DNA of 64,000 nt from a virus: positions 60,079 through 124,078 of the IMG/VR virus record IMGVR_UViG_3300008111_002402; one strand, 5' to 3'. Numbering within the stretch: position 1 is the stretch's first letter; each line of letters opens with the position of its first letter. Of the stretch, positions 22,128 to 41,206 are shown piece after piece. The notes beneath the pieces are model-generated. The model saw nothing but the letters and a program-made list of their open reading frames with translations, searched no databases and was not told where the DNA came from. The position numbers and the translations under genes are program-made.

Positions 22128-23420
22128 ATGTTTTTATCAGAATCATTACAAAAGAAGTGGGCTCCAGTTCTAGAACACGGATCCCTACCAGCCATCAAAG
22201 ACAACTACAAGAAGGCTGTTACTGCCGTTATTCTTGAAAACCAAGAAAAGGCATTGCGCGAAGAAAAGCAAGCATTGTTCGAAGCTGTTCCAGTTAACAA
22301 CATTGCTGGCTCAGGATCAACCGAAATTGACCGTTACGACCCAATCTTAATTTCATTGGTTCGTCGTTCACTTCCAAACTTGATGGCCTATGACGTAGCC
22401 GGCGTACAACCAATGACTGGTCCAACTGGCCTCATCTTCGCCATGAAGTCACGTTATTCAACCCAAGATGGTGCAGAAGCATTATTCAATGAAGCTGATA
22501 CCGACTTCTCAGGCACAGGCACACACGAAGGTACAAACCCAGTTGATGGCACATACACATACGGCACAGGCTTAACAACAGCAGCAGCTGAAGCTCTAGG
22601 CACAGGCGGTATGGCTGGTGACTTCAACGAAATGGCTTTCAGTATCGAAAAGACAACTGTAACAGCCAAGTCACGTGCATTGAAGGCCGAATACACAGTT
22701 GAATTAGCACAAGACTTGAAGGCAATTCACGGTCTTGATGCAGAAAGTGAATTATCAAACATTCTTTCACAAGAAATTCTTGCTGAAATGAACCGTGAAG
22801 TAATTCGTACTATCTACAAGGTTGCTAAGCCAGGTGCTGCTTCAACAGCAACAGCAGGTACATTCGACCTTGACGTTGACTCAAACGGTCGTTGGTCAGT
22901 AGAACGCTTCAAGGGCTTGATGTTCCAAATCGAACGCGATGCAAACGTAATCGCACAAGAAACTCGTCGTGGACGCGGTAACTTCATCGTCTGTTCATCA
23001 GACGTTGCAGCAGCTCTTGCCATGACAGGTAAGTTGGATTACACACCTGCTCTTTCAGGCAACGACGGCATCTCAATGGATGACACAGGCAACACATTCG
23101 CAGGTACATTGAATGGTCGCTTCAAGGTGTTCATTGATCCATACTCAGCCAACACAAACTCAGCTTCACAATTCGTAGTAGTTGGTTATAAGGGTTCAAA
23201 TGCATATGACGCAGGTATCTTCTACTGCCCATACGTTCCATTACAAATGGTACGTGCCATTGACCCATCTTCATTCCAACCCAAGATTGGATTCAAGACA
23301 CGTTACGGCATGATTGCAAATCCATTCGTAACACAAGCCAACGGTACAACTGACGGCGATACATTCACCGCTAACCGTAATCACTACTATCGTCGCTTGA
23401 AGGTCACAAACCTTCTATAA
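22128..23420 (+). CDS. gp23: Major capsid protein gp23
   Basis: 430 aa. Recognised by the N-terminal MFLSESLQKKW.PVLEHG.LPAIKD.YKKAVTA.ILENQEKAL, by AGSGSTEIDRYDPILISLVRRS.PNLMAYDV.GVQPMTGPTGLIFAM.SRY, and by the core EMAFSIEKTTVTAKSRALKAEYT.ELAQDLKAIHGLDAESEL and GRGNFIVCSSDVAAALAM. It is an HK97-fold shell protein, shorter than T4 gp23 (521 aa) in the insertion domain. The N-terminal propeptide up to about residue 50 (..KQALFEAVP) is the expected gp21 cleavage zone. Followed by a strong intrinsic terminator. Confidence 0.97.
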   Translation: MFLSESLQKKWAPVLEHGSLPAIKDNYKKAVTAVILENQEKALREEKQALFEAVPVNNIAGSGSTEIDRYDPILISLVRRSLPNLMAYDVAGVQPMTGPTGLIFAMKSRYSTQDGAEALFNEADTDFSGTGTHEGTNPVDGTYTYGTGLTTAAAEALGTGGMAGDFNEMAFSIEKTTVTAKSRALKAEYTVELAQDLKAIHGLDAESELSNILSQEILAEMNREVIRTIYKVAKPGAASTATAGTFDLDVDSNGRWSVERFKGLMFQIERDANVIAQETRRGRGNFIVCSSDVAAALAMTGKLDYTPALSGNDGISMDDTGNTFAGTLNGRFKVFIDPYSANTNSASQFVVVGYKGSNAYDAGIFYCPYVPLQMVRAIDPSSFQPKIGFKTRYGMIANPFVTQANGTTDGDTFTANRNHYYRRLKVTNLL

Positions 23421-23439
23421 TCGAAGTAGCAGATGAAAC

Positions 23440-23478
23440 AGGAAAGGGAGAGGCTGAAAAGTCTCTCCCAATCCTTTT
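23440..23478 (+). terminator. Intrinsic terminator after gp23
   Basis: Stem GGGAGAG (23446-23452) / CTCTCCC (23463-23469), 10-nt loop, extended by GGA/TCC outside a small internal bulge, then TTTT (23475-23478). It lies 25 bp after the capsid stop codon and closes the structural operon. Confidence 0.85.
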
Positions 23479-23521
23479 GCTATATACTTGTATACTTTCT
23501 CAGGAGTAGGGAGTATATAGC
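23479..23521 (+). other. Second hairpin in the gp23 downstream region
   Basis: Perfect 10-bp inverted repeat GCTATATACT (23479-23488) / AGTATATAGC (23512-23521) with a 23-nt loop that can itself form a small hairpin (TACT/AGTA). It starts at the T tract of the terminator. It is probably a 3-prime-end stabilising or reinforcing structure rather than a separate terminator, as no T tract follows. No credible gene is seen between 23421 and 23615. Confidence 0.6.
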
Positions 23522-23534
23522 TGTTTTATAGTAT

Positions 23535-23542
23535 CATAAATA
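23535..23542 (+). promoter_or_regulatory. Late promoter (one mismatch)
   Basis: CATAAATA, one mismatch from the TATAAATA consensus, 74 bp before the ATG at 23616. It lies beyond the capsid terminator, so the tail-tube-like gene needs its own start. Confidence 0.65.
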
Positions 23543-23615
23543 GTATTATCAATTCATCCCAGACATAGTGAGTTTAACACTCTGTCAAGTGCCAGTCAAG
23601 AGAGATAGGTGAAAC

Positions 23616-24212
23616 ATGTCAACCGAAATCACAGAAGCAAAATGGACTAATCGTCAACCTGAGGAACTAGATTTTCTACGTCCCAATGGCTTTCGTTTCA
23701 TGATTCAAAGTCTGCCGAAAGTAACATACTTTTGTCAGGCAGCAAACATCCCGTCCATGAATTTAGGTGTAGCAAAACAACCCACACCATTGATTGATAT
23801 CCCAAAGCCAGGTGAAAAACTTGACTTCGGTGAACTCACCATTCGTTTCATGATTCAGGAAGACATGGCAAATTACATTGAATTGTACAACTGGATGATT
23901 GCTTTAGGTTTCCCAGAGAACCATAAACAATTTCAAAAGAGATTCGCGGATCAAGCATTCCGAACACCTGAAATCAATAACCAAGATGTGGGTACACAAC
24001 GTAGAACTGACCTACCGGAATATAGTGATGCCACATTAATGGTATTGAATTCCAGTGACCTCCCAATCGTTCGGTTAAACTTCATAGATTGTTTCCCCAT
24101 CTCGTTATCTGGATTGGATTTCGATGTATCAACAGGAAACACACAATACTTTGTAGGCAACGCCGTCTTTAAATATCGCATGTTCACGGTGGAGTCTTTA
24201 TTGACTACTTGA
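23616..24212 (+). CDS. Second tail-tube-like (gp19-fold) protein
   Basis: 198 aa. The pattern RPNGFRFMIQSLPKVTYFCQAANIPSMNLG.A.QPTPLIDIP.PGEKLDFGELTI.FMI.EDM.NYIELYNWMIALGFPE is the gp19/Hcp-like tube family seen in many T4-like marine phages, distinct from the main tube gene 16059-16574. The C-terminal FIDCFPISLSGLDFDV...TQYFVGNAVFKY is the closing beta-sandwich. It may be a tail-tube initiator, tube terminator or baseplate-tube connector. Its separation from the tube gene and its own late promoter favour a minor structural role. Gene stop overlaps the following host-type promoter. Confidence 0.82.
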   Translation: MSTEITEAKWTNRQPEELDFLRPNGFRFMIQSLPKVTYFCQAANIPSMNLGVAKQPTPLIDIPKPGEKLDFGELTIRFMIQEDMANYIELYNWMIALGFPENHKQFQKRFADQAFRTPEINNQDVGTQRRTDLPEYSDATLMVLNSSDLPIVRLNFIDCFPISLSGLDFDVSTGNTQYFVGNAVFKYRMFTVESLLTT

Positions 24213-27296: not shown

Positions 27297-28202
27297 ATGC
27301 GTATTCGTTACTCAGAAATTTTTTATTCATTTCAAGGTGAAGCTGAATTGGCAGGAACGCCTGCCGTTTGGTTACGTTTCTTTGGTTGTAATTTAAATTG
27401 TAGTGGATTCGGACAAAAGAATCCCACAGACCCATCTACATATGAATTACCATTCGAAACATTCGATGTGGATTCTGTGAAGCATGTCAATGACCTTCCC
27501 GTGTGGAAGTTTGGGTGTGACTCATCCTATTCTTGGTCACAACGTTTCAAGCATCTAGCGCACGATGCATCTCCCGAAGAAATTGCTGACCGTTTAGTTG
27601 AAGCCAACAAGAGCGAGCATAACCCACAAGGATTGTTCATTCATCCTGTAACACAACAACCCATCATGCTATGCTTCACGGGCGGCGAACCCATGATGCA
27701 ACAAAAGGCAATGATGGAAATTCTTCGTGTGTTGCGTGACAGAAATAATGCACCACAACTTGTCACGGTGGAAACAAATGCCACACGCCCCTTGTCAGAA
27801 GAATTAAGAAAATTCATGTCATTTGAATTCCCATTCATGGGAAATGGTAAGGCGCGTTGGCATTGGTCAATGAGTCCAAAATTGTTCACGGTATCAGGTG
27901 AAGATAATGTGGTGAGTGCAGAACACATTCATGAATATTCACTTGCCAATGCTACATCCATTTTGAAATTTGTGTGTAACGGGACAAAAGAAAATTGGGA
28001 TGAACTTGACAATCACCTAAATAGAATTAGATTACTATGTGGGAGATACATGCCAGACGTATGGGTGATGCCTGTCGGCGCCACAAAGGATGCTCAAGAG
28101 GATCCGTATATTGGTGATTTGTGTATCGAAGCAATGAATCGTGGTTATAAAGTTGCCACACGAAATCATTGTTATGTCTTTGGCAACGTCATTGGGAGAT
28201 AA
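27297..28202 (+). CDS. queE: 7-carboxy-7-deazaguanine synthase QueE (radical SAM, atypical cluster motif)
   Basis: 301 aa from the ATG at 27297 with TTGGAG 6 bp before; the upstream TTG at 27285 is part of that ribosome site. QueE converts 6-carboxytetrahydropterin to 7-carboxy-7-deazaguanine. Visible: the opening YSEIFYSFQGEAELAGTPAVWLRFFGC, the substrate motif FQGE (12-15), the GGEP SAM-binding motif around 129-132 and VETNAT. The three cluster cysteines are not the usual CX3CX2C: Cys31 and Cys35 form CX3C, and the next Cys is Cys74 in KFGCDSSYSW after a 38-residue insertion. Such inserted forms occur in phage QueE-like proteins. With FolE and QueD it supplies the base that DpdA would use. 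Confidence 0.9.
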   Translation: MRIRYSEIFYSFQGEAELAGTPAVWLRFFGCNLNCSGFGQKNPTDPSTYELPFETFDVDSVKHVNDLPVWKFGCDSSYSWSQRFKHLAHDASPEEIADRLVEANKSEHNPQGLFIHPVTQQPIMLCFTGGEPMMQQKAMMEILRVLRDRNNAPQLVTVETNATRPLSEELRKFMSFEFPFMGNGKARWHWSMSPKLFTVSGEDNVVSAEHIHEYSLANATSILKFVCNGTKENWDELDNHLNRIRLLCGRYMPDVWVMPVGATKDAQEDPYIGDLCIEAMNRGYKVATRNHCYVFGNVIGR

Positions 28203-28203
28203 T

Positions 28204-28905
28204 ATGAAGTCACAACATCGTTTTAACGCATCAGCTATTCGTTCTGCCATGGGCAAGACTGATCCTGAATTGGGATTACAGGTACATAAGCATCTTGTTG
28301 CTCAGGGTGTAGAGACACCTTTCATGCAGACGGAAGAATATAGTGACAAGAAGATTAAGAAGATTGAAAAACATTTCACTGAAATCATGACAACTCTAGG
28401 TATGGATTTGACTGATGACAGTCTCCAAGATAGTCCTAAGCGTGTTGCCAAGATGTTTGTGAATGAACTATTTTGGGGATTAGATTATGCAGCATTTCCG
28501 AAGTGTACTGCCATTGAGAATAAGATGGGGTATGATGAGATGGTTCTTGAAAAGAACATCACGGTGACTTCGGCATGTGAACATCACTTTGTCACTATTT
28601 CAGGTGTGGCACATGTTGCCTACATCCCGAAAAATAAGGTGTTGGGGTTGAGCAAGTTGAATCGTGTTGTTGAATATTTCTCACGCCGTCCTCAGGTTCA
28701 AGAGCGCCTTGCAGAACAAATTTATCATGCTCTGTCATTCATCCTTGACACGCCTGATGTAGCGGTTGTTATTGACGCCGAACATTTCTGTGTAAAGGCA
28801 CGAGGTGTTGAGGATCCACATTCCAATACAATCACATCGAAGTTGGGTGGCGGATTCAAGGAGAATCCTGCCCTTCGTTCAGAATTCATGCATCTCATCA
28901 AGTAA
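28204..28905 (+). CDS. folE: GTP cyclohydrolase I FolE
   Basis: 233 aa, start ATG at 28204 immediately after the queE stop with GGGAG at 28194-28198; the in-frame upstream codon at 28141 lies within queE and is not used. Catalyses GTP to 7,8-dihydroneopterin triphosphate, the first step of the 7-deazaguanine route. Zinc ligands Cys125, His128 and Cys196 are present in TSACEHHF and HFCVKARGVEDP; GLSKLNRVVE and RPQVQERLAEQI are the conserved core, and the C-terminal SNTITSKLGGGFKE completes the family signature. The N-terminal 50 residues are a variable extension. All catalytic residues are intact. Confidence 0.95.
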   Translation: MKSQHRFNASAIRSAMGKTDPELGLQVHKHLVAQGVETPFMQTEEYSDKKIKKIEKHFTEIMTTLGMDLTDDSLQDSPKRVAKMFVNELFWGLDYAAFPKCTAIENKMGYDEMVLEKNITVTSACEHHFVTISGVAHVAYIPKNKVLGLSKLNRVVEYFSRRPQVQERLAEQIYHALSFILDTPDVAVVIDAEHFCVKARGVEDPHSNTITSKLGGGFKENPALRSEFMHLIK

Positions 28906-28909
28906 TATC

Positions 28910-29425
28910 ATGTCAAGTGATATCAATGTAATGATTGACTTGGAAACCATGAGTACCGAGTCAAACGCAGCAATCGCCTCTATTGGTGCGGTAAAATTTT
29001 CTATCGAAGCAGGTGTGATAGATACATTTTACTGCACGGTAGATGTGGCTGACTGTAAATTACAGGGATTACACATTTCTGCTGATACTGTGAAATGGTG
29101 GAGTAAGCAACCCAAGGAAGTATTAGAAATGCTTCGTGAAAATAATGTATCTCTGCGCGAAGCTCTTACAAAGTTTTCTCAATGGTATGGAACAGTACAA
29201 TATCCTACATGGGGTTGTGGTTCTGATTTTGATAATGTCATTATGGAAAATGCCTATAAGGCAGTAAGTATGGTACGTCCTTGGAACGCCTGGAGAAACA
29301 GGTGCTATCGCACAATACGCGAAGTAATTAAATTACCAGAAGCTGAACGAACAGGCACATATCACAATGCACTTGATGATGCGTTACATCAGACACATCA
29401 TCTACTTAAAATCTTTGGGAGCTAA
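28910..29425 (+). CDS. DnaQ-like 3-5 exonuclease (RNase H fold)
   Basis: 171 aa from the ATG at 28910, just after folE; the frame could be extended upstream but that would overlap folE with out-of-family sequence. Exo I DLETMS (Asp10, Glu12) with IASIGAVKF, a middle segment WGCGSDFDNVIM (Exo II-like Asp) and the C-terminal YHNALDDALHQTHHL (Exo III, His-x4-Asp) show a complete DEDDh active site. It resembles short phage exonucleases of the T4 DexA / Rv2179c type. Its place between folE and dpdA is either a plain insertion or a link to processing of the DNA base-exchange intermediate; the former needs no assumption. Confidence 0.85.
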   Translation: MSSDINVMIDLETMSTESNAAIASIGAVKFSIEAGVIDTFYCTVDVADCKLQGLHISADTVKWWSKQPKEVLEMLRENNVSLREALTKFSQWYGTVQYPTWGCGSDFDNVIMENAYKAVSMVRPWNAWRNRCYRTIREVIKLPEAERTGTYHNALDDALHQTHHLLKIFGS

Positions 29426-29427
29426 TA

Positions 29428-30687
29428 ATGTTTGAATATGTTGCTTCTGGGTTATCCTTTCTGCGTTGCAACTTTAAGGATACACATACAGGATATCTAT
29501 TGGGTGAATTGAATAAAATGTGGGGACATATTCGTGGTAAATATGACCACGAATTTTCATTCCTGTATAACGCCTATATTGAAAAGCATTTCGGTGAGGT
29601 GTTTTATGGTGCCTATCGTGGTAAAGGTATTAATCAGGTGTATGCCGACTCGGGCGGTCTACAAATTGTCACACAAGGATTGACCATCACGCCGGCATTA
29701 AAACAGAAGGTGTACGAGAGTCAAGCCATGTACTCTGATTGCGCCATGAGTTTTGATGAAATTCCTGTGAGCATTATTGGCACAAAGGCGGTACGTTCAG
29801 ATATTAACAGTAAATATTTTGATAGAAATAAATTTGAATGGTGTGCGCGTGAATCAGGCAGAAATGTGAAGAACCAAATTGACACATTCATCGCCATGAA
29901 ATCTGATGCCAAGCCCATGTTCATTGTACAAGGCGGTGACCTTGACACATACATCAAATGGTGTGAGTTGGCACTGGAAGAAATTCCTAAGGAATATCAT
30001 GAACGCATTGGCGGTGTCGCCATGGGTTCAGGTGGTATCGGTAACGGGATGTTTGAAGATTGTAAGCGAGCATTTTATTACACACAAACACCCTTGTTTG
30101 AAATGAACAATCATCTCCATTTGTTAGGTATTGGTGCAGTATCACGTATGGTACCTACATTGGCAATGATTGAAAGTGGCTTATACACAAACAAACATAT
30201 TAGTTATGATAGTACGACCCATACATCGGGTGTACAAATGGGAAGATACTATGGTCCTGATTTCTCTTGGATTACTCCCGGCAAACACTTCATCAATGAA
30301 AATGGTCCTCAGTATTCCATTATCAATGCCGACATCAAGAAAAATGTTCCGTTCTATGATGTAACAGATGAAGTATTCCATGAGGTCATGAACATCAGTG
30401 TTCGAAAGTATCAGGCAAAAACAAATGATCCTAATCCGCCCATTCTTGCATTTAACGCATACTTCACTTCATCAGTCATTAACTTTCTACGTCACTTAGA
30501 TACCATGAGAAAGGATTTTTCACAGATTCATACATTGATGAGTGACGATGAATACAATGCCATGATGGCGTTTAGTCGAGTTAAAAACAGAGTGGATTTT
30601 GAAAAGTGGGAAAATGAAATGGGACGATATCTCCCAAGTCAAGCTGTTCGTGATGGCATACCTGCAACATTACCTGAGGACTTTTAA
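29428..30687 (+). CDS. dpdA: DpdA-type DNA 7-deazaguanine transglycosylase
   Basis: 419 aa. Fold and motifs of the tRNA-guanine transglycosylase superfamily: VYADSGGLQIVTQG (Asp74 as the substrate-binding Asp), SFDEIP (108-113), FIVQGG (165-170), HLLGIGAVSRM (231-241) and YDSTTHTSG with Asp261 as the candidate nucleophile. The CxCx2C zinc site of bacterial Tgt is not visible in the C-terminal third, which has no Cys at all. Clustering with folE, queD and queE, but in a phage, indicates the DpdA family that exchanges guanine in DNA for a 7-deazaguanine, as described for several phages. It probably protects phage DNA from host restriction enzymes. Base specificity cannot be read from the sequence. 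Confidence 0.85.
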   Translation: MFEYVASGLSFLRCNFKDTHTGYLLGELNKMWGHIRGKYDHEFSFLYNAYIEKHFGEVFYGAYRGKGINQVYADSGGLQIVTQGLTITPALKQKVYESQAMYSDCAMSFDEIPVSIIGTKAVRSDINSKYFDRNKFEWCARESGRNVKNQIDTFIAMKSDAKPMFIVQGGDLDTYIKWCELALEEIPKEYHERIGGVAMGSGGIGNGMFEDCKRAFYYTQTPLFEMNNHLHLLGIGAVSRMVPTLAMIESGLYTNKHISYDSTTHTSGVQMGRYYGPDFSWITPGKHFINENGPQYSIINADIKKNVPFYDVTDEVFHEVMNISVRKYQAKTNDPNPPILAFNAYFTSSVINFLRHLDTMRKDFSQIHTLMSDDEYNAMMAFSRVKNRVDFEKWENEMGRYLPSQAVRDGIPATLPEDF

Positions 30688-30689
30688 TC

Positions 30690-31061
30690 ATGATAAAGCG
30701 TTACATTGAAGTGACATTTCAGAAAGAAGGTATTCACAAATATCCCGCAGCATTGACTGACCCGAAATTGAAAGATGTAGAATTTTTAGGATATCCTCAT
30801 AGACACATGTTTCATTTCCGTGTTCGTGTATCGGTGACACATAATGACCGAGACATTGAATTCATCTTATTCAAGCGTGAACTTGAACATCTATATCAAG
30901 GCACGTTGCATGTTGATTATAAGAGCTGTGAAATGTTGGCAGAAGATTTAATAGAGTACATTACTAATGTTTATCCGGGCAGAGAAGTTGAAGTAGGTGT
31001 GAGTGAAGATGGTGAGAACGGTGCAATCATTCAATATCAACCAATGGGGAGTTTGACATGA
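30690..31061 (+). CDS. Small T-fold-like protein in the 7-deazaguanine cluster
   Basis: 123 aa, 2 bp after dpdA; start ATG 30690. The strand-helix layout mirrors the QueD / 6-pyruvoyl-tetrahydropterin synthase fold: HRHMFHFRVRV resembles the HGH.Y.V.V zinc strand, EFILFKRELEH resembles the region before the first long helix, SCEMLAEDLIEYI resembles the T.E.LA..I helix and VEVGVSEDGENGAIIQY resembles the last catalytic strand. However, the catalytic Cys and first zinc His of QueD are not obvious. It is therefore perhaps a degenerate or specialised QueD relative. The neighbour at 32232 is a more complete QueD. Its stop overlaps the glycosyltransferase start. Confidence 0.6.
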   Translation: MIKRYIEVTFQKEGIHKYPAALTDPKLKDVEFLGYPHRHMFHFRVRVSVTHNDRDIEFILFKRELEHLYQGTLHVDYKSCEMLAEDLIEYITNVYPGREVEVGVSEDGENGAIIQYQPMGSLT

Positions 31062-32221
31062 AGATTTTCTATATGGGATTGGAATCATATGAATCACGAT
31101 ATACATTGCAACTAACTAAGTGGGCAACTACCACTATGGATCGTCGTGGTGTTGAATATGTGATTGTTCCCGGCAAGACCATTGATAACAGTCAGGCAAT
31201 TTCTGTGGGACAGGTTCTTGATGCACATGGAAGAAGTTATTTCGCTATGTCACAAATGATGAATCTTGTGCAGATGATGAAAGATGGGACAGTCACCGGT
31301 GAAGATGCCATCTTTTTTGAAGATATGTTTCAACCCGGCATTGAATCGCTTCCTTACATCATGAATCAAATCCCTGAAAAGGATCGACCGAAGGTGTGGG
31401 TACGTTGTCTTGCACAAAGCATTGATCCTGATGACTTTGTTCATGTGTGGGGTATGGCACCTTGGATGAGTAAGTATGAACACATGGTGAATGATTTTGT
31501 TACGGGTGTTCTTGCGTCAAATGAAGAAATGGTGGCACATATGAAGATTGCAGGTTGGACAGCACCTCTCTACAACATTTCAGGCTTGACGTTTGACCGT
31601 GATGAGGTGAGAAGTCGAGTATCGCATATTCCAGAATTCTCATCTAGAAAGATGCGTGTTGTATTTGCTGCTCGGTTTGACCAAGAAAAGCAACCCAACT
31701 TCTTCATGGATATTGCTGAACAAGTTGCAGAAACATATAACATTGAATTTGCCATAGTATCGGGCGGTCCATTACGGAGTAACAATCCGGTATATTTGGA
31801 ACGTGCTCGTAAATTAGAAAAGAGTGGTCTTTTAAAGATTTATGATAATCTTTCTAAGAATGAGTATTATGAGATTGTTGCCAATAGTCGTGTATTGTTT
31901 AATTGTGCATTACAAGATTGGGTAAGTAACACGGTGTCTGAGGCAGATGCACTTGAATGTAATGTGTTGTATCCTGCCTATCGGTCATTCCCAGAAACGT
32001 TTGCCAATGATGCTGAACGTTTATATGTACCTTGGTCACAACAAGATGCCATTAACAAGTTGTTCAGGCACTTGAATGAACCTCATAGAAACATGGGAAA
32101 GATTTCAGCTTGGACATCACAGACAATGGATAGAATTCTAGATGTGATGTTGGGTCAAGGTGAAGCATGGCGCCGGGATGATAATCGTTATCGTGACTAC
32201 ACTTCTACAAACAAATACTGA
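31058..32221 (+). CDS. GT-B fold glycosyltransferase in the 7-deazaguanine cluster
   Basis: 387 aa, coupled to the previous gene (ATGA). The C-terminal half has the GT-B/GT4-like pattern KMRVVFAARFDQEKQPNFFMDIAEQV, then FAIVSGG, LKIYDNLSKNEYYEIVANSRVLFNCALQDWVSNTVSEADALECN, with the sugar-nucleotide binding Glu in SEADAL. The N-terminal half is Rossmann-like (FYMGLESYESRYTLQLTKW). No signal peptide or membrane anchor. Position between dpdA and queD makes the modified DNA base the most natural acceptor to test; modification of protein or glycan is the alternative. T4 glucosylates its DNA with GT-B enzymes, but no direct orthology is claimed. Confidence 0.75.
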   Translation: MKIFYMGLESYESRYTLQLTKWATTTMDRRGVEYVIVPGKTIDNSQAISVGQVLDAHGRSYFAMSQMMNLVQMMKDGTVTGEDAIFFEDMFQPGIESLPYIMNQIPEKDRPKVWVRCLAQSIDPDDFVHVWGMAPWMSKYEHMVNDFVTGVLASNEEMVAHMKIAGWTAPLYNISGLTFDRDEVRSRVSHIPEFSSRKMRVVFAARFDQEKQPNFFMDIAEQVAETYNIEFAIVSGGPLRSNNPVYLERARKLEKSGLLKIYDNLSKNEYYEIVANSRVLFNCALQDWVSNTVSEADALECNVLYPAYRSFPETFANDAERLYVPWSQQDAINKLFRHLNEPHRNMGKISAWTSQTMDRILDVMLGQGEAWRRDDNRYRDYTSTNKY

Positions 32222-32231
32222 GGAGATGACA

Positions 32232-32675
32232 ATGAAATTCTATTCAACGAAAACATTTGGTAATGAGCGTGGTTTGAGCTGTGCATTTCGTCAATGGCGA
32301 GCAAAATCACATTGCAATCAAATTCATGGTTATAGTTTAGGATTTCGTTTCATCTTTGAGGCAGATGTCCTAGATGAAAGAAACTGGGTATATGACTTTG
32401 GTGATACCAAGTGGATTAAGGAATACTTAGATGTTGCCTTTGACCACACAACGGCAGTTGCCAAGGATGATCCTTTGCTTCCCTTGTTCAAACAAATGGA
32501 TAAGGAAGGCGGATGCACATTGCGTATTTTTGATAGTGTTGGATGTGAAGCATTTGCTCATATGGTATATGTTGACATTGCCCCCGGTGTTGTACACAAG
32601 ACGAACGGGCGAGTTCGCCTTAAGAGTGTGGAAGTATTTGAACATGGGAGCAACTCTGCCCTGTACGAGGGATAA
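32232..32675 (+). CDS. queD: QueD-like 6-carboxytetrahydropterin synthase
   Basis: 147 aa from ATG 32232, preceded by AGGAG (32221-32225); an in-frame ATG 6 bp earlier is too close to the site. Features of the phage QueD-like family: GLSCAFRQWRAKSHCNQIHGYSLGF with the catalytic Cys28 and the zinc His32 in HGY, FDHTT (Asp71/His72), a conserved ..VGCEAFAHMV helix and VEVFEHGSNSALYE with the proton-relay Glu. The first zinc His of bacterial QueD is replaced in the CAFRQW segment, as in related phage proteins. It makes 6-carboxytetrahydropterin for QueE. Abuts gene 47 with no gap. Confidence 0.85.
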   Translation: MKFYSTKTFGNERGLSCAFRQWRAKSHCNQIHGYSLGFRFIFEADVLDERNWVYDFGDTKWIKEYLDVAFDHTTAVAKDDPLLPLFKQMDKEGGCTLRIFDSVGCEAFAHMVYVDIAPGVVHKTNGRVRLKSVEVFEHGSNSALYEG

Positions 32676-37060: not shown

Positions 37061-39322
37061 ATGTCGAACGTCCTAGACAACACAAAGTCAACCCTAGGCA
37101 AGCTCCTAGCGGCAGAAAATATTCGCATCGAGCATCGGCAGGTTCGAGGCCCCAGCTTCGATGTTAAGAACCGAGTTCTGGTTCTCCCCATCTGGAAGGA
37201 AATTGACGCTGACCTGTATGACCTCATGATTGGTCATGAGGTTGGTCATGCTCTCTACACACCTACCGATGGTTGGATGGATCGGGTACAGGAGCACGGA
37301 AAGAATTTCAAGGGTATTCTTAATGTTGTTGAGGATGCTCGTATTGAAAAGCTCATGAAGCGTAAGTTTCCGGGTCTGCGGAAGCCCATGTATAATGGAT
37401 ACACCCAGCTTGTGGAGCGCGGGTTCTTCGGTGTCGGTCTGGATGATATGAAGCATCTCCCGTTTGCTGACCGTGTGAACGTGCATTTCAAGCTCGGTCC
37501 TCGCGCAGGTATTACATTTACGGATGCTGAGCAAAATCTTGTTTCTCGTATTGAGAATGCCGAGACATGGGATGAGGTGATGTCCTTGTCTGAGGAGCTG
37601 TTTGCGGCAGCGGATGGGGAGTTCAATGATATTTCCGATGACATTTTCGACAACCTCGATGCTCTGTCTGACGCCATTGACAACATGGATGAAGGCGGCG
37701 AGGGCGAGGGCACGGGCGAAGGGTATGGTGAATATTCCAGCGATACTCCAGGTAGTGGCAAGACGCTGCAGGATGTTATAGACCAGCTTCGCGCCGCAGG
37801 TAAGGATAATGCTGCCGACAAGCTGGAACGCATGTCCAAGAGCAATGCCTATCGTAGGATGATGACGGAATGGGCTGAGAATCAGGAAATGGGATCCATC
37901 ACTGACGAGGCTCTTGAGGCTAATCAGGAAAAGCTCATTGATGAGGATGCCTATCCTAATACATATATTTTCTGGCCTGAATTGAATCACAAGGATTATG
38001 TAATCCCTGCCCGTGTGGTGCATCAGCAGATGCGGTCTGAATACAAGCCGGAATATTTGGCGAAGGAGAATGACCTATACAACACCTTCATGAGCACCAA
38101 TCGTAATTACATTAAGTATTTGGTTAAGGAGTTTGAGCTAAAGCGAAATGCCAAGCAGTTCGCCAAGGCGCGTGTTAGCAAGACGGGTAAGCTGAACACG
38201 GAAAAACTTTGGCGCTATCAGATTTCAGAGGATCTGTTCCTACAGTCAACCGAAATTCCCAATGGGAAGAATCATGGAATGCTTATGGTTATTGATTTGT
38301 CAAGTTCCATGACTGAAAACATGGCAGGTACCATTGAGCAAATCATTAATCTTTCCATGTTTTGCCGAAAGGTGAATATCCCCTTCGATGTGTATGGGTT
38401 CATTGACACCTCAGCTGAAAAGGATTTCATGTTGTCGGGTATTACACGCTCTGAGAGCAAGCATCCAATTTTCGGTACGATGTATCGCACATGTCCTAAC
38501 GACAATCGTGACCGATCCATTCAAATTAACAATGTTGATTTTCGCTTGAAGCAGTTGCTCCATTATAACATGGGTGCTGCAGAATTTAACGTGTCGGTGA
38601 AAAATCTTCTTCTCTTGGCTAACGCCTATAAGCGTTCGGCAAACTATTACTATTATTCTTCAAGCTCCCACCATGTCCCCCCTTCGATGCATTTGGGTGG
38701 GACTCCATTGAACGACGCTGTTTTGGTTCTTCGCTCGCTTGCTGAGGAATTCAAGAAAAACACCCGTGTGGAAATTCTAAACACGGTACTGCTTACTGAC
38801 GGTGAAGCATCATATGGATTGGCGTTCAAGGATGGTGAGCAGATGGGTAACGCCGGTGGAATGTACCGGGGTCGGATTGTGATTGAGGATCGCAAGACAA
38901 AGAAGCAGGTCATGGTGTCGAAGTGTGGTAACATCACGTTGGCACTTCTTGAAATGTATCGGCAGCATACAGGTTCGCGGGTGGTGGGTTTCTATCTGAT
39001 GTCAGGTCGCAACTATCGCAGTCAGGTGATGGGAACCTTGACGCGAAATAATCCTGAATTCAATCAGGAAGTGTTCGATAAGCAGTATGCCGATGAATTC
39101 GCAAAGTACAAGTATTTCGGTATGAAGCTCGCCGGGTATGATGTATACTACATGGTGCCAGGTGATGAACTAGAAGTTGAAGATGTGGATATGGATACAG
39201 TCCTCAAGAGCTACAAGGATGGCTCAAAGAAGGGGTCTCTGCTCAAGGCATTTAAGAAAATGCAAAATACGAAAATGATTTCGCGTGTATTCTTAAATAG
39301 GTTCATTGAACAGATGGCGTAA
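37061..39322 (+). CDS. Zincin-like / von Willebrand factor A domain protein (CobT-like)
   Basis: 753 aa, ATG after AGAGG. Residues 40-130 contain GHEVGHALYT (HExxH at 59-63) and a following EDARIEKLMKRKFPG helix with the third ligand Glu, a zincin signature. An acidic Gly/Glu linker (EGGEGEGTGEGYGEYSS) follows, then a C-terminal vWA domain with the MIDAS motif DLSSS around residue 410 and later Thr/Asp residues (GGTPLNDAV, LLTDGEA). This architecture, paired with the AAA+ gene 39454, matches the CobT/CobS-like or MoxR/VWA systems seen in marine T4-like phages. The chelatase name is uncertain; a metal-dependent peptidase or chaperone role is at least as likely. Codon use is visibly more GC-rich than in neighbouring late genes. 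Confidence 0.8.
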   Translation: MSNVLDNTKSTLGKLLAAENIRIEHRQVRGPSFDVKNRVLVLPIWKEIDADLYDLMIGHEVGHALYTPTDGWMDRVQEHGKNFKGILNVVEDARIEKLMKRKFPGLRKPMYNGYTQLVERGFFGVGLDDMKHLPFADRVNVHFKLGPRAGITFTDAEQNLVSRIENAETWDEVMSLSEELFAAADGEFNDISDDIFDNLDALSDAIDNMDEGGEGEGTGEGYGEYSSDTPGSGKTLQDVIDQLRAAGKDNAADKLERMSKSNAYRRMMTEWAENQEMGSITDEALEANQEKLIDEDAYPNTYIFWPELNHKDYVIPARVVHQQMRSEYKPEYLAKENDLYNTFMSTNRNYIKYLVKEFELKRNAKQFAKARVSKTGKLNTEKLWRYQISEDLFLQSTEIPNGKNHGMLMVIDLSSSMTENMAGTIEQIINLSMFCRKVNIPFDVYGFIDTSAEKDFMLSGITRSESKHPIFGTMYRTCPNDNRDRSIQINNVDFRLKQLLHYNMGAAEFNVSVKNLLLLANAYKRSANYYYYSSSSHHVPPSMHLGGTPLNDAVLVLRSLAEEFKKNTRVEILNTVLLTDGEASYGLAFKDGEQMGNAGGMYRGRIVIEDRKTKKQVMVSKCGNITLALLEMYRQHTGSRVVGFYLMSGRNYRSQVMGTLTRNNPEFNQEVFDKQYADEFAKYKYFGMKLAGYDVYYMVPGDELEVEDVDMDTVLKSYKDGSKKGSLLKAFKKMQNTKMISRVFLNRFIEQMA

Positions 39323-39329
39323 TACTGTG

Positions 39330-39374
39330 AAGCCCTACGTAAGTTGTTGAAAAATAAGCACTTACGTAGGGCTT
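39330..39374 (+). terminator. Long perfect hairpin at operon junction
   Basis: Perfect 15-bp stem AAGCCCTACGTAAGT (39330-39344) / ACTTACGTAGGGCTT (39360-39374) with 15-nt loop TGTTGAAAAATAAGC, 7 bp after the preceding stop. The right arm ends in the first TT of the TTGACA of the next promoter, so structure and promoter are physically joined. It has the same loop as 52378 and the inverse of 36953. Confidence 0.85.
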
Positions 39375-39401
39375 GACAGACGAGAGAAATGGTGTTATAT
39401 T
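39373..39401 (+). promoter_or_regulatory. Host sigma70-type promoter for the AAA+ gene
   Basis: TTGACA (39373-39378), 17-bp spacer, TATATT (39396-39401), 52 bp before ATG 39454. The -35 shares bases with the right arm of the hairpin at 39330-39374. Confidence 0.8.
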
Positions 39402-39453
39402 TATAGTATAATCTGAGATGTACACTTCATCATTCAAGCACACAGGAGTAAAC

Positions 39454-40584
39454 ATGACCCGACTCATTGATGCCCTTCGCGCTACTGGTAAGACCGAGTT
39501 TTCTCGTCCTGATGTTCTCACGGTCGCCCGTGAGGTGGGTGAAAGTCCCAATGTGTTTTTGAATGACCCAGCATACAAGGTTCGGCGCGGCGTCTATGCC
39601 ATCACGCCTACAAGCACTTCAAATTATACGCCTATTCAGGCAGAGGCACCTATTGTGAGTAATGCATCTACAATGTATCTATCGCAGCCGAAGCTCAAGA
39701 TTGAGGTGGACAACCTTGTACCAAACAAGGATAGCACCTATGTACCTTTCGGGTTTCATAAGGATCTCATGACCATCCTCGCCTCCAAGCAATTCTATCC
39801 CGTGTTCATTACAGGATTGTCTGGTAATGGTAAGACCACCATGGTGGAGCAGGTGTGTGCCGCATTGAAGCGTGAGTGTATCCGTGTCAACGTCACCATT
39901 GAAACTGACGAGGATGACCTCATTGGAGGCAATACTCTTGTGGATGGCAACGTGGTGTATCGTGAAGGTCCCGTGACCATTGGGATGAAGCGCGGCGCTG
40001 TGGTCATTCTGGACGAGAGCGACCGCGGCAGTAACAAGCTGATGTGCCTACAGGCAATCCTTGAAGGAAAGCCGTATTTCAATAAAAAGACGGGCGAGAT
40101 TATTCACCCTGCCCCAGGTTTCAATATCGTGGCAACGGGTAACACCAAGGGTCAGGGTTCTGACGATGGTAAGTACATGTCCGCACAGATTCTGGACGAT
40201 GCACTCCTCGAGCGTTTCGCTGTGACCATCGAACAGGAGTATCCTAACTCCCGGGTGGAGAAGAAGATTATCATGAAGAAGATGGAGCGTGTGGAAAAGG
40301 TGGATGAGGATTTTGCCGACAAGCTGGTGGCATGGGCAGAAATCATTCGTAAGACGTTCATGGAGGGTGCTGTGGATGAACTCATCTCCACGCGGCGTCT
40401 GGAGCATATCGTGAACGCCTACGCTATGTTTGGTGACCGTCTCAAGGCAATCAATCTCTGTATTGCTCGATTCAATTCTGAGACCAAGGCGAGCTTTCTC
40501 GACCTCTATACAAAGGTGGATGCAGGTGTCACGATGACCCCAGCCGAACAGGCTGAGGGGTATCCCGATGACATTCCCTTCTAA
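39454..40584 (+). CDS. MoxR/CobS-like AAA+ ATPase
   Basis: 376 aa from ATG 39454, preceded by AGGAG; the earlier ATG (39418) lacks a ribosome site. Residues 1-60 form a winged-helix-like N-terminal domain; Walker A GLSGNGKT (121-128), then DEDDLIGGNTL, Walker B AVVILDESDRG, sensor-1 FNIVATGNTKGQGSD and a GYPDDIPF tail follow. The AAA+ core is of the MoxR/CobS type that typically powers a VWA partner, here 37061-39322. CobS of cobalt chelatase is a sub-case; in phages the pair may remodel a protein complex rather than insert a metal. GC-rich codon use as in its partner. Confidence 0.85.
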   Translation: MTRLIDALRATGKTEFSRPDVLTVAREVGESPNVFLNDPAYKVRRGVYAITPTSTSNYTPIQAEAPIVSNASTMYLSQPKLKIEVDNLVPNKDSTYVPFGFHKDLMTILASKQFYPVFITGLSGNGKTTMVEQVCAALKRECIRVNVTIETDEDDLIGGNTLVDGNVVYREGPVTIGMKRGAVVILDESDRGSNKLMCLQAILEGKPYFNKKTGEIIHPAPGFNIVATGNTKGQGSDDGKYMSAQILDDALLERFAVTIEQEYPNSRVEKKIIMKKMERVEKVDEDFADKLVAWAEIIRKTFMEGAVDELISTRRLEHIVNAYAMFGDRLKAINLCIARFNSETKASFLDLYTKVDAGVTMTPAEQAEGYPDDIPF

Positions 40585-40594
40585 TAGGTGATAT

Positions 40595-41206
40595 ATGGAA
40601 AACCCAATGGTGAATTATTCTAAAATCATCGCTGAAACAAATAGTAAAATGTATAATGTTCGGGATGAATATAAGAATAATAGTGTTGAAGAAAACATTG
40701 CCATTTGCAATAAGGAACACTTGAAGTTCTCGGTGGGGTGTATTAACATTACAGGAGAACTCAACATTGGGATGATGATTCGGTCAGCGTGTCTATTGGG
40801 TGCAGAGAATTTCTATATCTTTGGGCGTAATAAGTTTGACAGACGCAGCACAGTTGGTGCTGAGAATTATATTAACATCGTTCAATATAGTTATGACGAC
40901 CCGATACACGCCGACGCCGAAATCAATGAACGATTGGAATATATGTTGAAGTGGAACACTGTGGTGTTGTGTGAACAGGGCGGCGATGAAATTGGATCAC
41001 GAAAAATGGCGTTGAAATATTCGGAAGAAATAATAAATCCGTTGTTCGTATTCGGTTCAGAGAGTCATGGTATTCCTCCGCTAATAACTACTAATGAACA
41101 CTTTTATAAAGTGAGTATTCCTCAACGTGGAGTCCTTCGTTCGTTTAACGTGAGTGCTGCCATGAATATCATTGTGTGGGATTACATCAAGGAGATGCAT
41201 CTATGA
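40595..41206 (+). CDS. SpoU/TrmH-type RNA 2'-O-methyltransferase
   Basis: 203 aa, ATG 40595 (an in-frame ATG at 40607 is an alternative). SPOUT motifs: NIGMMIRSACLLGA (motif 1), LFVFGSESHGIP (motif 2, knot loop) and VSIPQRGVLRSFNVSAAMNIIVWDY (motif 3, SAM-binding trefoil knot). The family methylates the 2'-OH in tRNA or rRNA. All three motifs look intact, so the enzyme is probably active; substrate cannot be told. Presence in a T4-like phage suggests modification of host or phage tRNA/rRNA. Stop overlaps the next small gene. Confidence 0.88.
   Translation: MENPMVNYSKIIAETNSKMYNVRDEYKNNSVEENIAICNKEHLKFSVGCINITGELNIGMMIRSACLLGAENFYIFGRNKFDRRSTVGAENYINIVQYSYDDPIHADAEINERLEYMLKWNTVVLCEQGGDEIGSRKMALKYSEEIINPLFVFGSESHGIPPLITTNEHFYKVSIPQRGVLRSFNVSAAMNIIVWDYIKEMHL

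Follow-up and report, generated by a model that had tools for sequence, protein, structure and literature searches.

A glycosyltransferase gene linked to DpdA-type transglycosylase genes in phages may act in sugar modification of 7-deazaguanine

Introduction

Why would a phage keep a glycosyltransferase gene in the middle of a gene set for 7-deazaguanine synthesis? The question is raised by a 64,000-nucleotide stretch of viral DNA (the window; bases 60079-124078 of the 124,078-base virus record IMGVR_UViG_3300008111_002402), in which a predicted glycosyltransferase (GT) of 387 residues is encoded at 31058-32221 on the + strand. An earlier note on this DNA had placed the gene between dpdA and queD, in a deazaguanine operon, and open reading frame (ORF) and profile matches confirmed that map. 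The note had also proposed that DpdA inserts a 7-deazaguanine into DNA, to which the GT would then attach a sugar. On balance, this is the reading that we favour.

Phages such as 9g, CAjan, nt-1 and Dp-1 modify their DNA with 7-deazaguanines using DpdA or DpdA2 together with FolE, QueD, QueE and QueC, and the window likewise encodes FolE, QueD, QueE and a DpdA homologue. Loci of the window type differ in adding a conserved GT and a gene for a QueD-like T-fold protein. The available text of Hutinet 2019 (PMC6884629) describes no sugar step for phage 7-deazaguanine modification, and its main text has no word starting with 'glycos'. In line with the earlier note, which knew of no sugar-bearing 7-deazaguanine in phage DNA, our literature search found no report of such a base in DNA, Cui 2023 and a 2024 review in Microbiology and Molecular Biology Reviews (MMBR) being outside its coverage. 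This suggests that a sugar-bearing 7-deazaguanine in DNA is so far without experimental demonstration and, subject to that reserve, would be new.

Results

The glycosyltransferase gene is linked to DpdA-type genes

Relatives of the GT were gathered in four sets of loci. The window GT, when used to search IMG/VR, returned 396 stretches, from which 80 loci were kept (set A), and a scan led by the GT of phage PAC2 returned 161 stretches, with 80 kept and 79 of them new (set B, which includes the ACP17 genome as L100). The distant GT of locus L104, used as a further query, gave seven loci, five of which were counted (set D), L102 being already in set B and L259, which is L104's contig, having been dropped; set E consists of 13 GTDB genome contigs with a GT. 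A DpdA-type gene lies near the GT in 76/80, 72/79, 4/5 and 12/13 loci of sets A, B, D and E, respectively, or 164 of 177 GT-chosen loci in total. The association of GT and DpdA thus exceeds chance. Eleven of the 13 loci that fall outside it are contigs ending at most 2 kb from the GT on at least one side, and L118 has a DpdA-type gene elsewhere on the same record. The T-fold gene is present in 77 of the 80 loci of set A and in 72 of the 79 of set B. Gene order varies among lineages while membership is constant.

The reverse test used 80 loci chosen by the T-fold gene (set C). Seventy contain both DpdA and GT, five contain neither, three contain the GT alone and two DpdA alone; in the DpdA-only pair, the sequence of L204 breaks off right behind the T-fold gene and L218 belongs to a 328-kb record with a GT elsewhere (E 9e-149). 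The records of the other GT-less loci, most of which are fragments, yielded no GT.

Fourteen whole isolate records were also compared; they were chosen for matching one of the three genes (GT, DpdA or T-fold), and six of them contribute members to the DpdA profile. The GT was found in all five records with both DpdA and the T-fold gene (BUCT-ZZ01, X1, ACP17, PAC2 and Sinorhizobium phage Phosso), in none of the three with DpdA and no T-fold gene (nt-1, pf16 and Ps15), and in none of the six with the T-fold gene and no DpdA found (RHph_I1_18, phiST, D479, Ahp1, Bakedbeans and MA9V-3), where other DpdA subfamilies are possible. This rule is not strict, as L102 and L104 combine a GT with a DpdA of the Dp-1 type and have no T-fold gene that we could find. 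Among 50,697 phage records, 20 isolates match the GT family when the L104 GT is the query, and all 20 also match a DpdA query (the DpdA queries match 19 and 70 records). The T-fold gene is present in 16 of the 20; the other four (PhiXhv-12, -15, -16 and Ep032) carry a distant GT and a weak DpdA match (E 4e-4, 41% of the query).

The same glycosyltransferase accompanies three DpdA subfamilies

The DpdA-type protein of the window (29428-30687, + strand; phrog_10773) is 35% identical over residues 41-275 (E 1e-30) to positions 238041-238748 of Vibrio phage nt-1, inside YP_008125322, which is named DpdA2 in the available text of Hutinet 2019 (PMC6884629); dPreQ0 in nt-1 DNA and dPreQ1 in Dp-1 DNA are reported in the same text. 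In a comparison of the DpdA profile to the PDB, 42 of 43 matches were to tRNA-guanine transglycosylases (TGT), although they were weak (best E 0.017), and none of 22 DpdA-type proteins, among them that of the window, had a Pfam match at E<=0.01. The window protein carries DSGGLQ at positions 74-79, as well as Asp261, which we take to be the catalytic aspartate of the TGT family; D74, S75, G76, G77, Q79 and D261 are invariant in the 22 sequences. The dpdA label of the earlier note is borne out in these terms: judged from its sequence, the protein is a DpdA2-type transglycosylase, with putative base exchange in DNA.

Three DpdA types partner the GT. The nt-1-type DpdA2 occurs in the window, BUCT-ZZ01, X1 and ACP17, and a long DSGG[FY]Q type is found in most contigs and in the PA5oct group, for which the jumbo-phage survey of Iyer 2021 (PMC7824862, in its available part) places a deazaguanine system in PA5oct itself. 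A Dp-1-type DSGAF protein is encoded directly downstream of the GT in L102, L104, L261 and L262; in L104 it is 36% identical to the Dp-1 protein (E 2e-45) and matches phrog_887 (E 2e-42). An early tally had listed L101-L104 as GT loci lacking DpdA; this was rejected, as a Dp-1-type DpdA adjoins the GT, the match in L103 being weak (E 2e-4). The Dp-1-type model gave no match in 16 records, in a search that had no positive control. Because one GT accompanies three unlike transglycosylases, a shared product is the simplest explanation.

The gene product is a predicted GT4-like enzyme

The window GT matches Pfam Glycos_transf_1 slightly under the cut-off (E 4.6e-5, 23.5 bits versus 26.4), and 17 of 36 diverse relatives match this family at E<=0.01 (best 1.6e-8). 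It has no meaningful family match in PHROGs, where glycosyltransferases are matched by six of the 36 relatives. An AlphaFold2 model calculated from the 36-sequence alignment (pLDDT 88.3, pTM 0.87) displays a GT-B fold, and Foldseek returned glycogen synthase, BshA, GlgM, PglA and MshA among its top matches, with E-values down to 5e-12. In VIA-align, sucrose-phosphate synthase (Z 26.9, root-mean-square deviation (rmsd) 3.6, 344 aligned residues) and MshA (Z 25.3, rmsd 3.8, 335 aligned) were recovered, and the 50 matches listed are GT4-type, with Z from 26.9 to 22.3 across 296-344 residues, BshA and SenB also being among these neighbours. The GT-B/GT4-like assignment of the earlier note is thereby upheld.

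Near the N-terminus, E9, R14 and Y15 are invariant, and the pattern E-x4-RY[TS] is present in 36/36 members. In the second half, R206, K211 and E295 are invariant across the same 36 members; these presumably are GT4 donor-site residues, corresponding to the Arg/Lys donor pair and the EX7E motif, whose first residue is Asp in the window clade (LQDWVSNTVSE). The model and these motifs indicate that the product is a GT-B, GT4-like glycosyltransferase, with putative retaining transfer from a nucleoside diphosphate (NDP)-sugar.

The earlier note had drawn a parallel with T4 glucosylation and had suggested a fold comparison with T4 AGT and BGT. Neither enzyme is among the 50 structural matches listed in the Foldseek or VIA-align searches, an absence that excludes nothing, and the GT gave no Pfam match (E<=1) or PHROG match to the AGT and BGT families, both of which we believe these libraries to cover. 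The parallel can be drawn for the logic of the modification only, the fold neighbours recovered being GT4-type enzymes.

Donor-sugar genes and a second glycosyltransferase

Sets A and B together comprise 159 loci, and in 84 of them the start of an epimerase gene coincides with the end of the GT gene or is at most 10 nt from it. The epimerase gene is more distant in 34 loci and was not found downstream in 40, and the overlap filter removed one GT. Across the 62 of the first 85 loci that have an epimerase downstream, the gap has a median of -4 nt. The epimerase of L069 is GalE-like (TIGR01179, E 8.6e-62, 209 bits, below the cut-off of 262), and that of PAC2 is shorter and matches TIGR01179 at E 6e-4 only. 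Set A loci also carry genes for phosphomannomutase (34/80), a nucleotidyltransferase (40/80) and a UDP-sugar dehydrogenase (35/80), mostly upstream.

In Synechococcus phage BUCT-ZZ01, whose GT is 69% identical to that of the window, a second GT4-like protein (447 residues) is encoded between folE and the DpdA gene. This protein has homologues in six further loci, three of them bacterial; a disaccharide on the modified base is possible.

Operon structure and the T-fold gene

The window operon reads, all on the + strand, queE, folE, exonuclease, DpdA-type, T-fold, GT and queD, followed by genes that we named gp47/gp46-like by eye. A queE-like radical SAM protein of the 7-carboxy-7-deazaguanine synthase family (27297-28202), FolE, or GTP cyclohydrolase I (about 28204-28905, with an approximate start codon), and an Rv2179c-like exonuclease (28910-29425) were identified by profile matches; a homologue of the exonuclease (40%) comes after the GT in BUCT-ZZ01. 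The T-fold protein (30690-31061, 123 residues, phrog_17812) precedes the GT, whose ATG overlaps the T-fold stop codon (ATGA), as the earlier note had seen, and is preceded by GGGGAG. QueD, of the 6-carboxytetrahydropterin synthase family (32232-32675), keeps the conserved Cys and Asp-His.

The model of the T-fold protein (pLDDT 93.6, pTM 0.84) has E. coli QueD as its top structural match (Z 12.6, rmsd 2.2, 110 aligned), and the 'T-fold-like' label of the earlier note can be refined to a QueD-type T-fold. The Cys and Asp-His of QueD are catalytic, and all five phage QueD proteins compared keep them (C28, D71, H72). The T-fold alignments have no conserved counterpart of these residues at matching places, as placed by eye, although His16, His37, His39 and an SCE motif are invariant in 29 sequences; the profile comparison with QueD aligned the C-terminal part only. 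Because the conserved counterpart is lacking, the protein looks like a QueD paralogue with different chemistry.

A further difference from the known phage systems concerns QueC. Of 12 isolate records with the T-fold gene, 10 have no QueC match, X1 has one below the cut-off and D479 a partial one above it, such that 11 of the 12 are without a match above the cut-off. Full-length QueC is present in nt-1 and pf16, which lack the T-fold gene, and partial QueC in Ps15, which also lacks it; the T-fold gene and QueC tend to occur apart. The window's 124-kb record also encodes two short PP-loop-like proteins, at 2352-2867 and 23094-23672 (L256:2352-2867 and L257:5094-5672), whose C-terminus is QueC-like and rich in cysteine. 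They were provisionally left out of the proposed pathway, being distant from the operon and matching mainly the QueC C-terminus.

Several observations concern neighbours of the T-fold gene in other phages. A protein of about 130-180 residues ('c5'; examples at L014:6752-7285, L003:8320-8718 and L002:9513-9944) is encoded near DpdA and the T-fold gene in 68 of 80 set A loci; it has no Pfam match and nothing better than E 0.016 in PHROG. The T-fold gene occurs with no GT or detected DpdA in Vibrio phage D479 (L090), Aeromonas phage Ahp1 (L091) and Cellulophaga phage phiST (L089). A DNMK-type nucleotide kinase is encoded about 1 kb from the T-fold gene in D479 (E 6e-9) and Ahp1 (E 2e-17), and in phiST the flanking genes are annotated as MazG-like and ATPase, neighbours hinting at a dNTP-level route to a 7-deazaguanine. 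Rhizobium phage RHph_I1_18, which has no GT-family match, carries a gene annotated as an Appr-1-p processing enzyme (L087:8414-9238) after folE and the T-fold gene.

Elsewhere in the window, a 753-residue protein adjoining a MoxR-like AAA ATPase (37061-40584) resembles, by eye, a chelatase-type pair, and a phage-encoded SpoU-family RNA methylase follows at 40595-41206 (Pfam E 3e-14). In the remainder of the same phage record (L256:7709-17970), seven consecutive radical-SAM-like proteins (388-516 residues, identified by eye) are encoded, with an SGNH-like gene among them.

Bacterial loci

In seven of the 13 GTDB contigs, named Devosia, Sulfitobacter (two), Azospirillum, Shimia, Pelagibacterium and Thalassobius, a long-type DpdA is separated from the GT by about one gene at most, and directly upstream of the GT is a YhhQ-like gene. 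YhhQ is a preQ0 transporter according to the available text of Hutinet 2019 (PMC6884629). With the Shimia YhhQ-like gene as query, matches were obtained only in those seven bacterial contigs; the name is tentative, because the Vut_1 profile exceeds its cut-off of 27.2 bits only in Azospirillum (31.1 bits, against 23.7-25.5 in the others). Integrase-like genes seen by eye near the bacterial GT loci suggest genomic islands; several of the seven contigs are short, and we do not claim a chromosomal location for all. Bacterial Dpd genomic islands, in which a DpdA-type gene resides in a bacterial genome, are known, and the contigs described here differ in that DpdA is accompanied by the GT and a YhhQ-like gene. 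Possibly, this cluster is a DNA-modification island. Among these loci (L270-L272 and L274-L277), L271, L274 and L275 also encode a protein of about 585 residues and a second GT.

Discussion

A pathway that would account for the linkage begins with FolE, QueD and QueE, which would produce 7-carboxy-7-deazaguanine. The T-fold protein would act on this compound, possibly by a decarboxylation that replaces the QueC route; Cui 2023 reportedly describes DpdL, an enzyme that decarboxylates 7-carboxy-7-deazaguanine, and the presence of dCDG/dDG in phage DNA. DpdA would then exchange guanine in phage DNA for the 7-deazaguanine base, and the GT would move a hexose or pentose from an NDP-sugar onto the 7-position or its substituent, an order of steps and a choice of acceptor atom that we infer. 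Many relatives have phage-borne genes for the donor, with a GT-coupled epimerase and, in some of these phages, also phosphomannomutase, nucleotidyltransferase and UDP-sugar dehydrogenase; the window's phage may rely on its host for the sugar donor. The modified guanine would be bulky and sugar-bearing, a purine counterpart of glucosyl-hydroxymethylcytosine, and could shield DNA from nucleases. Of the earlier note's proposal, the placement of a sugar-adding GT in a 7-deazaguanine system is strengthened by the linkage to three DpdA subfamilies, the bacterial loci and the GT-coupled epimerase; the DNA base as acceptor, its identity as 7-carboxy-7-deazaguanine and the sugar are parts that we infer.

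Several points weigh against this reading. The counts are not independent, because many loci are close relatives: clustering at 50% identity reduces the 239 GT loci of sets A, B, C and the isolates to 12 clusters, with 222 of the loci in just two of these, and the GTs of L006-L009 are 100% identical. Nine of the 12 clusters have a DpdA-type gene, and the remaining three are supplied by Dp-1-type genes, with the weak match of L103 among them. The profile models were trained partly on the loci counted. The 182-kb record of L105 carries a GT and the T-fold gene, and no DpdA was found in it. In PhiXhv-12 about 92 kb separate the distant GT from the DpdA-like gene; a queD is near the latter, and the GT adjoins genes annotated as glutamine-fructose-6-phosphate aminotransferase and N-acetylglucosamine (GlcNAc)-malate deacetylase. 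No match to the Epimerase family was found in the window's own 124-kb record, and the sugar would therefore come from the host. If the T-fold protein decarboxylates the base, there is no obvious side group left for the sugar. Partial QueC-type matches above the cut-off in three of 19 virus records (G000, G002 and G007), the window's included, keep a preQ0-type base possible.

Among the alternatives, the one that survives best is that the sugar acceptor of the GT is the free base (a 7-deazaguanine), a nucleotide or a pterin intermediate, with glycosylation preceding or replacing insertion into DNA. The huimycin cluster, as given in the available text of PMC7439116, provides a precedent, since a GT gene is found there with FolE, QueD, QueE and QueC homologues and transfer of GlcNAc onto a free 7-deazapurine is proposed; in addition, tetrahydrobiopterin glucosyltransferases are among the structural neighbours of the GT (9v0l, Z 23.5; 5zes, Z 23.0). 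DpdA, however, is the most constant partner of the GT, even where FolE, QueD and QueE were not found nearby (the seven bacterial contigs, L102 and L104). The six isolates with a T-fold gene and no DpdA found have no GT either, nor do the records, mostly fragments, of the five T-fold-chosen loci without DpdA and GT nearby. We consider this alternative unlikely.

Still less likely is that the GT modifies host or virion surface molecules (lipopolysaccharide, capsule or protein) and merely shares the locus. GT4 enzymes act mostly on glycans and lipids, and in many loci the neighbours of the GT include nucleotide-sugar genes. Cyanophage GT clusters, moreover, are read as polysaccharide-modification genes in the available part of Iyer 2021 (PMC7824862), which also counts against a DNA-base acceptor. 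A bystander, on the other hand, would not be expected beside three DpdA subfamilies, in shuffled gene orders, and in both phages and bacterial contigs, nor would it track DpdA and the T-fold gene in the 14 isolate records.

We regard as improbable, and rank lower again, the idea that the GT and the transglycosylase act on tRNA, yielding a glycosylated queuosine-like wobble base comparable to animal mannosyl- and galactosyl-queuosine. TGT is a family of tRNA enzymes, relatives carry epimerase and mannose-type genes in the neighbourhood, and glycosylated queuosine exists, as the available texts of PMC7384130 and PMC12518689 report. Against it, the window transglycosylase is homologous to nt-1 DpdA2 and that of L104 to the Dp-1 protein, both from phages with 7-deazaguanines in DNA; no tRNA gene was found in the window, which is about half of the record; and in most set A and B loci the system is flanked by genes for DNA polymerase and clamp.

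A non-glycosyl role of the fold, or a donor other than the usual NDP-sugar, would agree with the Asp at the first EX7E position and the Pfam score under the cut-off, yet it is very improbable in view of the invariant R206, K211 and E295 and of the coupling between GT and epimerase genes seen in many relatives. Given the tie to three DpdA types, none of these alternatives fits as well as a DNA base as acceptor.

Comparison with known systems places the favoured DNA-base reading between several precedents. T4 AGT and BGT glucosylate 5-hydroxymethylcytosine, and RB69-type phages arabinosylate 5-hydroxycytosine (PMC13390438, available text), by the same proposed logic, in which an altered base receives a sugar from an NDP-sugar in DNA. 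The base here would be a guanine analogue brought in by base exchange, whereas theirs is a pyrimidine placed by the polymerase; the window enzyme also differs from the T4 enzymes in being GT4-like, and no match between it and T4 GT profiles was detected. In animal mannosyl- and galactosyl-queuosine a sugar is likewise carried by a 7-deazaguanine inserted by a TGT-fold enzyme, but the target is tRNA and the sugar sits on the cyclopentene ring; homologues of QueA, QueG and QueH are absent from the viruses analysed by Hutinet 2019, according to its available text (PMC6884629). The huimycin cluster (HuiG; PMC7439116) also holds its GT gene among FolE, QueD and QueE genes; it differs, in the text available, in having a small-molecule product, QueC-type and methyltransferase genes and a proposed transfer to the free base, with no DpdA named.

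A wider form of the proposal can be put forward only tentatively, and we hold it to be doubtful as a whole: a widespread 'glyco-Dpd' system of phages and some bacterial genomes, in which a 7-deazaguanine, inserted by a member of any one of three DpdA subfamilies, is glycosylated by a dedicated GT4-like partner, with a second GT adding a further sugar in some lineages. Where the T-fold protein removes the carboxyl group, the sugar may join carbon 7 directly, giving a C-glycoside in DNA.

If the favoured reading, DpdA insertion followed by GT-mediated sugaring of the base, is correct, two known disguises of DNA, 7-deazaguanine exchange and base glycosylation, would be united in one pathway. A function would be given to a gene pair found in 396 environmental phage stretches and in cultured phages (the PA5oct group, ACP17, X1, Phosso and BUCT-ZZ01). 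Resistance of such DNA to many nucleases would be predicted, and the enzymes could provide new tools for DNA labelling. That a YhhQ-like gene, the GT and a DpdA are also found together in bacterial contigs suggests that the system may serve cells as well.

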